A DNA stretch of 64,000 nt from Maricaulis maris (lineage in GTDB: Bacteria; Pseudomonadota; Alphaproteobacteria; Caulobacterales; Maricaulaceae): contig NZ_RBIM01000003.1 of assembly GCF_003634045.1 (NCBI RefSeq), positions 308,158 through 372,157 on the forward strand. The letters are read 5' to 3'. The notes beneath the pieces were generated by a model. It ran no database searches, was not told the origin of the DNA, and saw nothing but the letters and a program-made list of their open reading frames with translations. A program made the position numbers and the translations under genes. Below are positions 33,915-54,368 of the stretch, one piece after another. Position 1 is the stretch's first letter, and every line of letters begins with the position of its first letter.

Positions 33915-35468
33915 ATGTTTGCAGCCGAGAGCCTTGTCCGCACGCTCATCAATCAGGGCGTCGAGGTCTGCTTCACCAATCCGGGCACGTCGGAAATGCA
34001 CATGGTCGCCGCCCTCGACCGCACCGAGGGCATGCAATCGGTTTTGTGCCTGTTCGAGGGCGTCGCGACCGGAGCGGCCGACGGCTATGCCCGCATGGCG
34101 GACAAGCCGGCCTGCACCCTCCTCCATCTCGGCCCGGGCGCCGGCAATGGCTTGGCCAATCTGCACAATGCCCGCCGCGCCCATGCGCCAGTCGTCAACA
34201 TTGTCGGCGATCATGCCCGCGACCACATCAAGCTGGACGCCCCGCTGACATCGGACGCAGCCGGGGTCTGCCGGCCGATGTCACGCTGGGTCGGATGTGT
34301 CAGCGACGCCGCCGAGTTGTCGACCATGGCCGTCGAGGCGGTCCGCCAGTCCTATGGCCCCGAGCGCGGCGTGGCCTCGCTGATCCTGCCGGCGGATTGT
34401 GCCTGGTCGGACGAGGAGCCGGATGTGCTCGATGCCGTCGCCATGCCCGGCCCGACACCGGTCGCCGACGACCGGATCGCCGATATCGCCGCCGCACTGA
34501 AAGCGGCGGACAAGCCGGTCATCCTGCTGGGCAATGATGCCTGCCGCGAAGCCGGTCTCAGCGCTGCCGGACGGATTGCCGAAGCGACCGGCGCCCGACT
34601 GTTCATGGACACATTCGTGCCGCGCATCGCCCGCGGCCATGGCCGGGTCTCACCCAAACGCCTTGCCTATTTCGGCGAGCAGGCGATCGAGGAGCTGGGC
34701 GACGCCGACTTGCTGGTCATCGCCGGTTCCAAACCGCCGGTCGCTTTCTTCGCCTATCCCGGCCAGCCGGGGGAATTGACGCCGGGCAGCGCGCGCAGCG
34801 AGACCCTGGCCGGACCCGCTGATGACGTGATAGCAGCGCTGGAAGCGGTCGCCGACGCCCTGGACATCACCGCCACGCCGCTGGACCTGCCCGACCTGTC
34901 GCAAGCGCCGAAACTCTTCCCGGACGAAGCGCTCAATCCCGGCTATGTCGGAATTTCCCTGCTCCGCCACATGCCGGAGGACTCGGTGATCTGTGACGAT
35001 GCCACCACAAGCGGCATGGGCGTGTTCCCTTGGATCGAACATGGTCCGCGACATGACTGGCTGTGCCTGACCGGCGGTGCGATCGGGTCCGGCATGCCGC
35101 AAGCGGTCGGCGCCGCCCTCGCCTGTCCCGACAGGCAAGTCTTCGCCCTGTGCGGCGACGGGGCGGCGGCCTACACGCTGCAAGCCCTGTGGACCCAGGC
35201 GCGCGAGAAGCAGAACGTGATCAACGTGGTGTTTGCCAATCACTCCTACCTGGTGCTCAATGTCGAACTGGCCCGCGTCGGGGCCGGAGATCCCGGACCG
35301 GCCGCGCAGCAAATGCTGTCACTCGACAATCCGAAAATGGATTGGGTGAAGCTCGCCGAAGGATTTGGTGTGCCGGGTCAGCGCGCGGCAACCGCCGGTG
35401 AATTCGACGATGCCCTCAAGCGCGCGCTCGCGGCCAGCGGACCACAATTGATCGTCGCGGAGATCTGA
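33915..35468 (+). CDS. thiamine-diphosphate enzyme, acetolactate-synthase/decarboxylase family
   Basis: A 517-residue ThDP enzyme. The cofactor-activating Glu (about residue 48) lies in CLFEGVATGAADGYARMAD, and the Mg/diphosphate motif is ALCGDGAAAYT followed about 25 residues on by FANHSY. It is shorter than acetolactate synthase (about 560-600) and has no FAD-binding insert clearly visible. Possible activities are a 2-keto-acid decarboxylase, a benzoylformate-decarboxylase-like or a 2-hydroxyacyl-CoA-lyase-like reaction. It sits next to a 2-hydroxy-acid oxidase, which would supply its 2-oxo-acid substrate. Confidence 0.85.
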   Translation: MFAAESLVRTLINQGVEVCFTNPGTSEMHMVAALDRTEGMQSVLCLFEGVATGAADGYARMADKPACTLLHLGPGAGNGLANLHNARRAHAPVVNIVGDHARDHIKLDAPLTSDAAGVCRPMSRWVGCVSDAAELSTMAVEAVRQSYGPERGVASLILPADCAWSDEEPDVLDAVAMPGPTPVADDRIADIAAALKAADKPVILLGNDACREAGLSAAGRIAEATGARLFMDTFVPRIARGHGRVSPKRLAYFGEQAIEELGDADLLVIAGSKPPVAFFAYPGQPGELTPGSARSETLAGPADDVIAALEAVADALDITATPLDLPDLSQAPKLFPDEALNPGYVGISLLRHMPEDSVICDDATTSGMGVFPWIEHGPRHDWLCLTGGAIGSGMPQAVGAALACPDRQVFALCGDGAAAYTLQALWTQAREKQNVINVVFANHSYLVLNVELARVGAGDPGPAAQQMLSLDNPKMDWVKLAEGFGVPGQRAATAGEFDDALKRALAASGPQLIVAEI

Positions 35469-35471
35469 TCG

Positions 35472-37295
35472 TCAGCTGCCGGCGCGGCGCGCTTCGTCCG
35501 GTTGCGCGTCTGCGTCGGCGGACTGCGGCGGCATCACCGTTTTCAGGACCCGACGCAGTTCGGCGATCTCGACCGGTTTGGGCAGATAGTCAGTAAAGCC
35601 GGCGGCGAGGAATTCGCGGCGATGATCGTCGGAGGCAAGGGCGGTGACCGCGATGATGCGGGCGTCGGCCGATTTGCGGGTCTCGCGGATACACTGCATC
35701 GCGCTGACCCCGTCCATCTCCGGCATCTGGATGTCCATCAGTACGACATCATAGGCCAGAGAGGTGGCCTTGTTGACGGCTTCTCGACCGCCCGAGGCGC
35801 AGTCGACGATCAGCTCGTCGGCCTTGATGATCTGCTGCACCATCGCCTTGAGCACGAGCTGATTGGTCATGACATCATCGACCACCAGGACGCGTCCGGC
35901 GACAGCCAGCGGCGCTATGCTGGCCGGGTCACGCTTGGCGACATCCGGCTCGGACGCCACGACACGTTCCATCGGCACATCGACGGTGAAGGTGGAGCCA
36001 CGCCCCATCTTGCTCGACAGGGTGATCTTGCCATCCATTTTCGCAACCAGGCGGCGGCAGATCGCCAGACCCAGCCCGGTGCCGCCATAGCTTCGCGTGA
36101 CCGAAGCATCCACCTGTTTGAACGGGTCGAAAATCGCGTCCTGCTTATTGCCCGGAATACCGATCCCGGTGTCACGGACCGCGAAACGAATACGGGTCTT
36201 GCCATCACGCACTTCACCGACCGTGGCCAGCGAGACACTGATGCGACCGGTATGGGTGAATTTGACCGCATTGCCGAGCAGGTTGTTGATCACCTGGCGA
36301 AGCCGGATCGGGTCGCCTGACACGAAGGCCGGTTCGCCGAGTTGGTTGTTGACTGTCAGCGCGACGCCCTTGGCTTCAGCTTGCGGACGCCAATGATCAG
36401 TGGTGTTGCGGACCAGCGCCGACAGGTCAAACTCGCGCGTTTCGAGCTCGAGCGCGTCGGCCTCGATCTTTGAAAGGTCGAGAATGTCATTGAGCAATTC
36501 CAGCAGTGCCTTGCCGCTGTCATCAATGAGATCAAGGCTGCGGCGATGCTCGTCCGACAGGCTTTCATCGGCTTGGAGAACATTGGTCATACCCAAAACG
36601 CCGTTCAGCGGCGTGCGGACTTCATGGCTCATATTGGCGATGAAATCGGACTTGGCGCGATTGGCTTGCTGCGCCGAAATCAGCGCCGTTTCCAATTGCT
36701 TGTTGGCTTCGGTGAGGGCCGCTTGCGCGTCAGTGGTCGCCGAACGGAAGCTCGATCCGAACAACACGATCCAGACGCAGGACAGGGCCCCGGTAGCGAT
36801 CAGCATGTTGAGCAGTTCTGTCGGCCTGAAACCGAGCGGTCCGGTACTCGAATATTCGGCGGTTGCCAGGATCAGGCTGAAATAGGCGGTGAGCGGCAAA
36901 ACCGCGAACAGGGCCGCACGGGCGCCCCAGGCAATATAGGCGCCGAGTACAATACCGGGCAGGTAGAGCGTGGCAGGCGGGAAGGATCCGCGATTGGCCC
37001 AGGCGGCCGCAAACAGCACGATCGAGGCCAGGGTAATCATGACCAGAATGGTCAGATTGGGTCGGCGCAGTCGCAGGCCCGTAAAGCCGACGGTCGCTGC
37101 CAGGGCCGCCGATGCCAAGCCGAGTTCGGCCATGCCCGGTCGTCCGTCCAGGATAAAGGTGAGCACCGAGGCGTTGACCAGGCCCATGAGCGTGAAGATC
37201 GCTGTGTAGGCAACGGCAATGCGGGATTTGACCGCAAAATCGAAATCGATTTGCGGGTCGGCCCCCGTCCAACGGTCGATCTGCCTCCAAAGCAT
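35472..37295 (-). CDS. hybrid sensor histidine kinase with receiver domain
   Basis: A 607-residue membrane kinase. The ATG at 37295 follows AAGGAGGGA. There is a bundle of six or so membrane helices (about 25-195), then a short coiled linker. The HisKA domain carries SDFIANMSHEVRTPLNGVLG (phospho-acceptor His); the HATPase has GDPIRLRQVINNLLGNAVKF and GTGLGLAICRRLV. A C-terminal receiver domain follows (VLVVDDVMTNQLVLKA, phospho-Asp in VLMDIQMPEMDGV). The ligand is unknown because the N-terminus has no recognised sensor fold. It is convergent with the ThDP gene and lies beside nagE. Confidence 0.92.
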   Translation of the reverse strand: MLWRQIDRWTGADPQIDFDFAVKSRIAVAYTAIFTLMGLVNASVLTFILDGRPGMAELGLASAALAATVGFTGLRLRRPNLTILVMITLASIVLFAAAWANRGSFPPATLYLPGIVLGAYIAWGARAALFAVLPLTAYFSLILATAEYSSTGPLGFRPTELLNMLIATGALSCVWIVLFGSSFRSATTDAQAALTEANKQLETALISAQQANRAKSDFIANMSHEVRTPLNGVLGMTNVLQADESLSDEHRRSLDLIDDSGKALLELLNDILDLSKIEADALELETREFDLSALVRNTTDHWRPQAEAKGVALTVNNQLGEPAFVSGDPIRLRQVINNLLGNAVKFTHTGRISVSLATVGEVRDGKTRIRFAVRDTGIGIPGNKQDAIFDPFKQVDASVTRSYGGTGLGLAICRRLVAKMDGKITLSSKMGRGSTFTVDVPMERVVASEPDVAKRDPASIAPLAVAGRVLVVDDVMTNQLVLKAMVQQIIKADELIVDCASGGREAVNKATSLAYDVVLMDIQMPEMDGVSAMQCIRETRKSADARIIAVTALASDDHRREFLAAGFTDYLPKPVEIAELRRVLKTVMPPQSADADAQPDEARRAGS

Positions 37296-51812: not shown

Positions 51813-51929
51813 CCTCGAGCTGTGACCGGGTATCGCTCCCGCTGAAATTGCAATAATCTCGCATCGATAAAAGCCTGATCCAGGGGCTATCGACATGCGC
51901 ATGCACTTTTCGGCGGGAGGTTTAACCAG

Positions 51930-53537
51930 GTGAGCAAGCGGACACATCCGTGGACGGCATTCCGTTCGATGCAGGCAAAGCTCTTGCTGCTTGTCTGCAC
52001 GATCACGCTGCTCTCTGCCCTGATCATGACGTGGGTCAACCAGGTCCAGACCTACCGTGTGGCCCGCGGCGCTACCATCGAACAACTCGCCAGCGAAGCC
52101 GACCTGGTCGCCGCTGCCTTGTCAGAAGCCATTCGGAACTTGCGTAACGACGCGCAAATCATCGGCCAGACTCCGCCGGTTCAAGGCCTCGCCCGCACCG
52201 CAGCCAATGGTGGAATTGACCCCCTTGGCGGCGCGACCGATGGAACCTGGCGAACGCGACTTGCGTCGATCTTCAGTTCGACCATGCAAACCCAAACCCG
52301 CCCGTCCTACATGCAAATGCGCTATATCGGTCTATCCGATGGAGGTCGCGAGCTGGTCCGCGTCAATCATGTCAATGGCGAGAATTTCGTCGTTGAACCC
52401 AATCTCTTGCAGCAAAAGGGCGATGAGCATTATTTCCAGGCTGGCCTGGCCGTCGCGCCGGATGGCGCCTATCTGTCCGATGTGACGTGGAACCGGGAAT
52501 TCGGCGAGGTCGACCCGCGCGAAATTCCCACCATCCGCCTGCTGCTACCCATCGCGACAAGCGATGGCACACCATTCGGATTTATTGCCATCAATGCTGA
52601 CTATGAGGCACTGCTGCGGCAGGCAATCGCGACCACAACCTTGGCCAACCGTCTGCTCATTTCCAACCAGAATGGCGATTTTCTGGCGACCGATCCCGGC
52701 CAGACACACATCCGCTTCGGTTATCATGCAGACCACACCTACCAAGCCCACCCACTGCTCGGTCACGTCACAGCATCGCACGGGCCAACGCGCGGCGAAT
52801 TCGATGGCGAGATATTCGCCACCCGGCAGATCGAGTTTTCCGACATCGAAACCCCGCTCGACCTCCGCGTCACGGTGTTGCGTGATACCGCGTCCGTAAA
52901 TGCAGCCGCGCTCGAAAACCTGCCGGTGATCGTCATCAGTTCGGTCATCCTGATCCTCGCGAGCCTGAGCGTCACCGTTCTGGCGATCAATCATGTCATG
53001 CGCCCCTTCCGGGCGTTGTCGACACGGATCGAAAGTGCGGGCTCACTCCGCCAGATCGAGGATTTTCCGATCGAGCGGGTGGATGAGGTGGGCACGCTGG
53101 CGCGCGCATTCAGCGACGTGACGGCCGGGCTGGTATCCAGCGAAGCCCGCACCCGCGCCATTATCGAAGGTATCGCCGAAGGCGTGATCGTCATCGATGG
53201 GGCGGGGCATATCGAAACCTTCAACCCGGCCTGCGAGCGAATGTTCAACTACCGTGCTGACGCGTTGATCGGGACCAATATCAGTCTCCTGATACCGTCC
53301 GACAGTGCCAACGGGCACGATGGCTTCCTGGCACGGCGGGCCGACGGCGAGCTGACAGATGTCATCGGCACTGTCCGCGAAGTGCACGGCGTCCGCAAGA
53401 ATGGTTCGCGCTTTCCCATGGAGCTTTCGGTCAGCGAGATCGAGCTGCCTGGCGGTCGCCTTTACTGCGGTATTGTGCGCGACATTTCCCAGCACACGCA
53501 AGTCGAGCAGGTGAAGGATGGCTTCATTGCACCGTGA
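51930..53537 (+). CDS. dCache-HAMP-PAS sensor protein, kinase part lost
   Basis: A 535-residue membrane sensor starting at GTG after GGGAGG. Two membrane helices (about 15-35 and 330-355) flank a double-Cache-like periplasmic domain. A HAMP segment (MRPFRALSTRIE) and a PAS domain (RAIIEGIAEGVIVIDGAGHI, ending VRDISQHT) follow. The chain stops at VKDGFIAP, exactly where family kinases continue into the His-containing DHp helix. The remaining DNA downstream still reads like DHp in another frame, so this is a truncated histidine kinase. It may still be made as a sensor fragment. Confidence 0.75.
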   Translation: MSKRTHPWTAFRSMQAKLLLLVCTITLLSALIMTWVNQVQTYRVARGATIEQLASEADLVAAALSEAIRNLRNDAQIIGQTPPVQGLARTAANGGIDPLGGATDGTWRTRLASIFSSTMQTQTRPSYMQMRYIGLSDGGRELVRVNHVNGENFVVEPNLLQQKGDEHYFQAGLAVAPDGAYLSDVTWNREFGEVDPREIPTIRLLLPIATSDGTPFGFIAINADYEALLRQAIATTTLANRLLISNQNGDFLATDPGQTHIRFGYHADHTYQAHPLLGHVTASHGPTRGEFDGEIFATRQIEFSDIETPLDLRVTVLRDTASVNAAALENLPVIVISSVILILASLSVTVLAINHVMRPFRALSTRIESAGSLRQIEDFPIERVDEVGTLARAFSDVTAGLVSSEARTRAIIEGIAEGVIVIDGAGHIETFNPACERMFNYRADALIGTNISLLIPSDSANGHDGFLARRADGELTDVIGTVREVHGVRKNGSRFPMELSVSEIELPGGRLYCGIVRDISQHTQVEQVKDGFIAP

Positions 53538-53759
53538 AGCATGAAGTCAGCCCCGCTGACCGACCGGGCGGGATCGCTGGGCCTGCTCAGGACCGAGGCC
53601 AGGGGCCACTTCCACCAGACGCTCGGCAACTGGCTCTCCAAGACCGCCAAGACACGCATTGAGACATTTGACGGCGAGATGAAATTCGATTCAGTTGAGG
53701 GGCAGGATCACGCGTCCATTCCCACCGGCCCGTCCACGACGACTGCGAAGAAAGCTCCG
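53535..53759 (+). pseudogene. decayed histidine-kinase DHp region (ATPase domain deleted)
   Basis: After the stop at 53535-53537 the DNA still encodes APLT, AGSLGLLRTEA (53568-53600) and GEMKFDSVE (53673-53699), which match the DHp helices and start of the ATPase region in kinases with the pattern SHELRTPLTSI-GSLGLL. The H-box itself is damaged: in the +1 frame, GTG AAG CAT GAA still reads VKHE. About 13 codons between the two remnants and the whole HATPase domain (about 110 codons) are missing before the response-regulator gene. This is interpretation from comparison in memory. Confidence 0.65.
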
Positions 53760-54155
53760 ATGCCAAAATCGCTGGATCGAATTCTCTATCTTGAAGACGT
53801 GCAGGCGATCGCCGACGTGGTGGTCATGGCCCTTGAAGACCTGGCCGGCTTTGAAGTCCACCACGCAGATCGCGGCGCCAAGGCGATCACGGCAGTCGAG
53901 AGTTTCCAACCCGATTTGTGCCTGTTCGACGTGATGTTGCCGGACATGGATGGGCCGGAGACCCTCAGGCGCATTCGCGCCCTCGCCGGACATGACGACA
54001 TGCCGGCGATCTTCATGACCGCCAAGACCCAAACCCAAGAGCCGGACGACTATGCCCGCATGGATAGTCTCGGCGTCATCATGAAACCCTTCGACCCCAT
54101 CACGCTCGGCGACACCATCCGCGAGATGTGGAATACACGCCATGACCGGTCCTGA
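53760..54155 (+). CDS. single-domain response regulator (CheY-like)
   Basis: A 131-residue stand-alone receiver domain. The start at 53760 matches the family N-terminus (LDRILYLEDVQAIADVV). The acidic pair is in LYLED, the phospho-Asp in LCLFDVMLPDMDGPETL, the Thr in IFMTAK and the Lys in VIMKPFDP, so all receiver residues are intact. No output domain is present. It lies directly after the decayed kinase, so it was presumably that kinase's partner and now needs another phospho-donor. The open frame extends upstream to 53541 through the decayed kinase region. Confidence 0.87.
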   Translation: MPKSLDRILYLEDVQAIADVVVMALEDLAGFEVHHADRGAKAITAVESFQPDLCLFDVMLPDMDGPETLRRIRALAGHDDMPAIFMTAKTQTQEPDDYARMDSLGVIMKPFDPITLGDTIREMWNTRHDRS

Positions 54156-54291: not shown

Positions 54292-54368
54292 TGGTGGGCC
54301 CGGAGGGACTCGAACCCCCAACCAAGCGGTTATGAGCCGCCGGCTCTAACCAATTGAGCTACAGGCCC
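54292..54368 (-). tRNA. tRNA with CAU anticodon (Ile2 more likely than Met)
   Basis: A 77-base cloverleaf on the minus strand with encoded CCA. The acceptor arms GGGCCTG / CGGGCCC pair. The D-arm reads TAGCTCAATTGGTTAGAGC, the anticodon loop is CT-CAT-AA within CGGCGGCTCATAACCGC, and the T-arm GGGGGTTCGAGTCCCTC is canonical. The anticodon stem and the CGCTTGGT variable region resemble E. coli tRNA-Ile2 (CAU, modified to lysidine by TilS) more than elongator tRNA-Met. The surrounding 54156-54583 interval holds no gene that I can support. Confidence 0.88.

Follow-up and report, generated by a model that had tools for sequence, protein, structure and literature searches.

The question raised by this locus is what becomes of a single-domain response regulator when the histidine kinase encoded beside it no longer has a catalytic half. 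The two genes lie in a 64,000-nucleotide stretch of Maricaulis maris DNA (the window, by which we mean the whole stretch that was analysed), one part of a 3.57-Mb genome of 12 contigs. The main features were as follows.

51915..51920, plus strand: Shine-Dalgarno-like GGGAGG, 5′ of the GTG start of the sensor (read directly from the sequence).
51930..53537, plus strand: truncated sensor open reading frame of 535 amino acids, GTG start and TGA end (Pfam and alignment with relatives).
53760..54155, plus strand: intact single-domain response regulator of 131 amino acids (PF00072, 71.5 bits).
54292..54368, minus strand: tRNA-Met, downstream of the locus and on the opposite strand to the receiver.

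The sensor frame was found to encode, in order, an N-terminal membrane segment (membrane segments were judged by eye), a PF21623 domain, a HAMP-like linker, and a PAS domain, followed by the TGA; HAMP was called by Pfam in the relative L051 but not in the window sensor. The sensor and signal-relay domains that precede a kinase core are thus present (PF21623 and PAS), and the frame aligns with kinases. The TGA (53535-53537) follows directly after VKDGFIAP, a point past which the aligned relatives go on as KDEF(I/V)STVNHELRTPLTS, so that the stop does fall where the kinase core should start, as the initial annotation had proposed. This sensor is present in one copy in the host genome, the window's own. 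A promoter and terminator scan of the locus gave nothing useful, and a PAS domain model was the only specific hit that passed the NCBIfam cut-offs.

Sequence downstream of the stop was compared with a core profile built from 16 of the 17 aligned order-level kinases (L062, with a distant core, was left out), and four damaged stretches were distinguished.

53529..53549, plus strand: damaged H-box with two frame-changing lesions, near 53530 and 53549 (frameshift-aware profile alignment).
53550..53606, plus strand: remnant of DHp helix 1 (APLTDRAGSLGLLRTEARG), including AGSLGLL (core-profile HMM and frameshift-tolerant alignment).
53607..53651, plus strand: remnant of the CA N-box (HFHQTLGNWLSKTAK), aligned to RFNQALVNLLSNAAK, with the conserved Asn now Lys.
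53652..53734, plus strand: remnant of the C-terminal end of CA (TRIETFDGEMKFDSVEG, a frame change near 53704, then GSRVHSHRPV; HMM and frameshift-tolerant alignment).

The three kinase fragments after the stop (DHp helix 1, N-box, and CA tail) were colinear with the family core, and an HMM of the relatives' kinase core matched the post-stop frame at model positions 6-46 (DHp) and 204-224 of 248 (CA end). Three frame changes were detected by the frameshift-tolerant alignment, near 53530, 53549, and 53704. The H-box lesions, between which sits the out-of-frame fragment TVKHEV, give rise to the TGA stop; the stop precedes the H-box, and the codon of the phosphoacceptor His (CAT, 53540-53542) survives in another frame only. 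Two internal deletions flank the N-box, skipping core positions 36-120 and 136-200 of 243 (about 85 and about 65 codons of the family core, together about 150); in the family core the second block holds the G1 and G2 boxes, and the window's CA lacks the N-box Asn and all of positions 136-200. The alignment of 53538-53734 to the core profile scored 71.1, compared with a maximum of 34.4 among 1000 dinucleotide shuffles, none of which reached it. Taken piece by piece, 0 of 1000 shuffles matched the DHp fragment, 1 of 1000 the N-box, and 0 of 1000 the CA tail, and the best ungapped position of the N-box was 121 of 243 (score 31.6; next-best distinct site 9.5). A control stretch inside the sensor behaved as background on the same profile, its score being reached by 114 of 300 shuffles. 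In the remnant 18 of 28 family-conserved residues are retained. The initial annotation had read AGSLGLL and GEMKFDSVE as DHp remnants beside a frame-damaged H-box and an ATPase domain that was wholly absent: the H-box damage and the first assignment stood, GEMKFDSVE was reassigned to the C-terminal end of CA (positions 204-224 of 248), and the ATPase domain proved to be gutted rather than absent, an N-box fragment and the CA tail having persisted.

The kinase core of the window is a pseudogene: colinear remnants carry three frame-changing lesions, a premature stop, and two internal deletions here, and intact homologues occur elsewhere. The sensor protein therefore cannot autophosphorylate and, with DHp and CA missing, cannot phosphorylate anything. 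A programmed frameshift restoring the kinase was rejected, as most of the CA core is missing in every frame. Relocation of the catalytic half within its own genome was also considered; among 28 matches to the M. salignorans kinase core (the best at 37% identity, in a 640-amino-acid frame) no relocated half was evident.

The same conclusion, loss of a catalytic half next to an intact receiver, is backed by the intact relatives. Sensor homologues were found, with the window's own genome included, in 2 of 19 genomes of the genus, 17 of 398 of the order, and 7 of 385 of the class; in the family the count was 7 of 137 genomes, and 4 of 72,556 plasmid records carried one, all below 60% identity. The searches of the genus, family, order, class, and plasmids yielded no sensor orthologue close enough for dN/dS. 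All 17 aligned order-level kinases, the distant L062 included, were found to run through DHp and CA (L068, which a contig end cuts, was left unaligned, as was the second kinase of L063), and at most order-level loci the kinase is followed or flanked by a receiver related to that of the window. A scan of contigs with a single protein returned nothing, and an alignment-based scan returned 80 homologous loci, 67 of which keep the CA domain in the sensor frame. The other 13 comprise 11 with tails of 409-1086 residues (among them L133, which runs to its contig end), L107, which is cut by a contig end, and the frame-broken L144; three of the long tails were inspected by eye and are GGDEF-EAL-like by their motifs. 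Thus, cut or broken copies aside, no homologue examined had the truncated length of the window sensor with a conserved end, an outcome that would have spoken against truncation.

Two loci of the genus were informative for the history of the pair. Maricaulis salignorans DSM 16077 (NZ_FNHG01000029.1; L051/L090; G003) has the same sensor, HAMP, and PAS layout, the stop of its kinase adjoins the start of a receiver that is 61% identical to the window's, and its kinase, unlike that of the window, is 759 amino acids long with HisKA and HATPase_c; its sensor is only 37-39% identical, and its genomic neighbours are different. The second locus, in G016, shares with the window a receiver of 74-75% identity on the same side of two neighbour genes, SIMPL-like and PanD-like, and a decayed kinase fragment just upstream (2.5 kb separate the receiver from the SIMPL-like gene downstream of it, itself 87% identical). 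Unlike in the window, the whole sensor, PAS, and DHp are gone: no match to the sensor was found in G016, nor did the stretch match sensor or PAS above background. The G016 remnant lies immediately upstream of the receiver, covers core positions 162-229 with two in-frame stops, and scored 54.0 on the core profile, where the highest of 500 shuffles reached 34.1; it was also found with the CA profile alone (20.8 bits). It keeps 7 of 23 conserved residues, compared with 21-23 of 23-26 in functional members. About 300 bp from the G016 receiver there is also a divergently placed hybrid kinase, which is unrelated. The block covered by the G016 remnant is mostly missing in the window, whose own frame changes are unseen there; the kinase was lost either twice or only once, through a lesion that can no longer be seen, with later decay along different paths.

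The receiver, which had been described as intact with all its active residues, was confirmed to be so: PF00072 is its sole domain, and in an alignment with 16 receivers from relatives Asp, Thr, and Lys are present in the columns that we take to be the active site. It is orthologous to receivers paired with intact kinases. At E <= 1e-28, receivers of this kind were found at 17 places in 16 of 398 order genomes, and at 13 of the 17 a same-strand kinase-core frame ends at or near the receiver start; at L234 (= L066) the kinase lies divergently beside it, at L235 a weakly matching kinase-core frame lies on the other side, and the window and G016 are the places with only kinase remnants. The window receiver is an orphan in that no kinase-core match lies within its 3.4-kb locus (L079). 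With respect to selection, the dN/dS of the receiver between the window and G016 was 0.213 (bootstrap 95% 0.122-0.365), and that of two nearby genes was 0.128 and 0.159. Family-conserved receiver residues are kept at 27 of 31 positions in both genomes; the near-duplicates L055, L058, L064, and L065 were left out of all conservation counts, and L091 (truncated start) out of the receiver count. Retention in the receiver exceeded that in the kinase remnant strongly in G016 (Fisher P = 3.6e-5) and less clearly in the window (27/31 versus 18/28, P = 0.06). Among the four conserved residues that the window receiver has lost are a His and a Gly; the mean distance of this receiver to the others is slightly larger than that of the M. 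salignorans receiver (1.43 versus 1.25), and mild relaxation is possible. Part of the purifying selection on the receiver could date from before the kinase was lost, above all in the window, since the loss looks younger there.

These results point with good confidence to a kinase that has become a pseudogene and, next to it, a retained orphan receiver that would draw its phosphate elsewhere. In the ancestor, a gene for a membrane histidine kinase (PF21623 sensor, HAMP, PAS, HisKA, and HATPase) would have been followed directly by one for a single-domain receiver, as is standard for such pairs; in the window's genome the kinase core has since become a pseudogene, with autophosphorylation lost. 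Given the Asp, Thr, and Lys positions that it keeps, the orphan is probably still a phosphorylatable regulator, supplied by another histidine kinase of the genome, an Hpt protein, or acetyl phosphate; alternatively, it may work without phosphorylation. With less assurance, the sensor fragment may still be produced, as a membrane protein lacking the kinase; the data can be explained without any function for it. Between the dying system and the new role offered by the initial annotation, the outcome was mixed: the kinase no longer works, purifying selection acts on the receiver both here and in G016, where the kinase has decayed further, and the evidence on the sensor fragment is no more than suggestive.

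As to the donor, 28 kinase-core matches occur elsewhere in the window genome, and several of its own kinases match the family DHp profile at 40-47 bits, none of them standing out as partner. A second stand-alone receiver of the same subfamily is encoded both in the window genome (L169 4191-4733, contig 2, about 35190-35732) and in G016 (L224 5984-6514). It is 36-37% identical to the window's, has no kinase core beside it in the 9-12 kb read around it, and gave a dN/dS of 0.18 at near-saturated dS. With the 28 matches and this second stand-alone receiver, cross-phosphorylation or acetyl phosphate would be a plausible supply.

An alternative that we consider possible but doubtful is that the whole operon is dying, the sensor frame and receiver being intact only because the kinase was lost recently. 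In line with this, some conserved residues are gone (PAS keeps 16 of 20, the receiver 27 of 31), and in trees the mean distances of the window sensor, PAS, and receiver to their relatives are somewhat greater than those of M. salignorans. The receiver is also dispensable, being present at E <= 1e-18 in 3 of 19 genus genomes (window, G003, and G016) and absent from 16; the stretches read around the SIMPL-like gene in seven other genus genomes (eight loci) gave no nucleotide match to the receiver/kinase region except for 47 bp in G017 and 48 bp in G015, which match within the first 65 bases of the G016 stretch, next to a neighbouring kinase gene. However, the receiver of G016 holds 27 of 31 conserved residues, with a dN/dS of 0.21, although no sensor is left there and the kinase remnant retains only 7 of 23. 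Furthermore, the lesions of the window are unevenly placed: the 1605-bp sensor (535 codons) has none, and all three frame changes fall within the 225 bp of the remnant. On a uniform null this distribution has P = 0.0019, which rises to 0.015 when the two H-box changes are taken as a single event (both values post hoc), such that the absence of lesions from the sensor fragment is weakly non-random.

This same clustering, with 535 codons free of stops and frameshifts and the damage lying downstream, also speaks for a reading that we regard as unlikely, in which the sensor fragment has been kept as a working kinase-less receptor that would bind its signal and act through PAS on another kinase or on the receiver, or as an antagonist. 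The fragment retains 65 of 78 family-conserved residues (49 of 58 in the sensor and 16 of 20 in PAS), changes at conserved sensor residues are mostly conservative, and its choice of synonymous codons remains that of a gene (0.194 per codon in frame, against -0.206 and -0.338 out of frame). A first count, with the N-box left out of the remnant, gave 12 of 19 in the remnant versus 39 of 47 sensor and 14 of 16 PAS columns; two more relatives were used for sensor and PAS, and a 12-row family for the remnant, in the later counts, so that the Fisher comparison with the remnant mixes slightly different reference sets. Against such a receptor, the difference in conserved residues between sensor and remnant is only at P = 0.06, no homologue of the truncated length was found among those examined, and G016 has kept the receiver and lost the sensor altogether, which argues that the receiver does not need the sensor. 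Overall, the sensor-fragment data fit either recent loss or a kept receptor. The fuller combination, in which (i) the receiver moved to another phosphate donor and has been preserved in two Maricaulis lineages that lost the kinase independently, and (ii) the sensor-PAS half of the window was preserved as a kinase-less membrane receptor, appears rather improbable.

Translation might instead stop at 53537 and restart at 53541, yielding a new protein in which the kinase remnant is fused to the receiver.

53541..54155, plus strand: putative 204-amino-acid open frame that spans kinase remnant and receiver; the first ATG comes 3 bases past the sensor stop.

The frame is open, with its ATG close behind the stop; however, the remnant part consists of scrambled fragments, an open frame of about 73 codons is not unusual at the local G+C (a rough estimate), and the receiver's own ATG at 53760 agrees with the start in relatives. 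The frame may be a fused reading or a chance opening, and we judge a new fusion protein very unlikely. An assembly or sequencing error within an intact kinase gene, which small frame changes close together might suggest, is hardly credible, as two separate blocks amounting to about 150 codons are gone, conserved residues are also substituted (18 of 28 kept), and the lesions found at this operon position in G016 are different ones.

Orphan receivers are common, and the steps from a paired receiver to an orphan are seldom caught. The genus shows three stages: an intact pair (M. salignorans), a gutted core with an open sensor (the window), and a decayed fragment upstream of a conserved receiver (G016). 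Taken singly, the locus is one more case of ordinary two-component decay, a kind already known, and what it adds is a receiver that outlasts kinase loss in two related genomes. Most of its value lies in this series within one genus, which opens to experiment the question of whether some other kinase now supplies the receiver, and which one. Similar events are described in passages of a myxobacterial survey (PMC4603909), where small indels and frameshifts altered two-component genes, leading to pseudogenes and changed gene organisation; like the window, these cases show indels making two-component pseudogenes, although they concern other bacteria, with frameshifts in about 1% or fewer of the orthologous clusters. 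Orphan response regulators are portrayed as functional without a known partner kinase in parts of the reports on HP1043 of Helicobacter pylori (PMC5253667) and NnaR of mycobacteria (PMC6277429). Both resemble the window receiver in containing a receiver and having no known partner, whereas both are, by these same parts, OmpR-type with a DNA-binding output and the window regulator is a receiver alone. Literature searches returned no paper that stood out as dealing with the window locus, which is no proof of absence.

Several minor observations were made among related loci. In contig 2 of the window genome (L194, about 124070-124462), a receiver match lies in a 463-amino-acid frame containing one TGA, possibly another broken two-component gene. 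The kinase relative at L057 4324-6612 (G027) is full-length (762 amino acids, strong HATPase_c match), with the H-box VNIEIRAP placing Ile at the phosphoacceptor His position; it is perhaps a pseudokinase, and no related receiver was found in its 11-kb stretch. At L063 11898-14197 (G234), a second kinase copy nearby is split into frames of 129 and 614 amino acids and is followed by its own receiver. Proteins of about 280-306 amino acids with a C-terminal receiver were found beside several kinase/receiver pairs (L053 2813-3655 and L061 8415-9335). With the L061 protein as query, the window genome gave receiver-level matches only. The L053 protein also carries an Hpt domain, and proteins of this type are possibly a third relay component.
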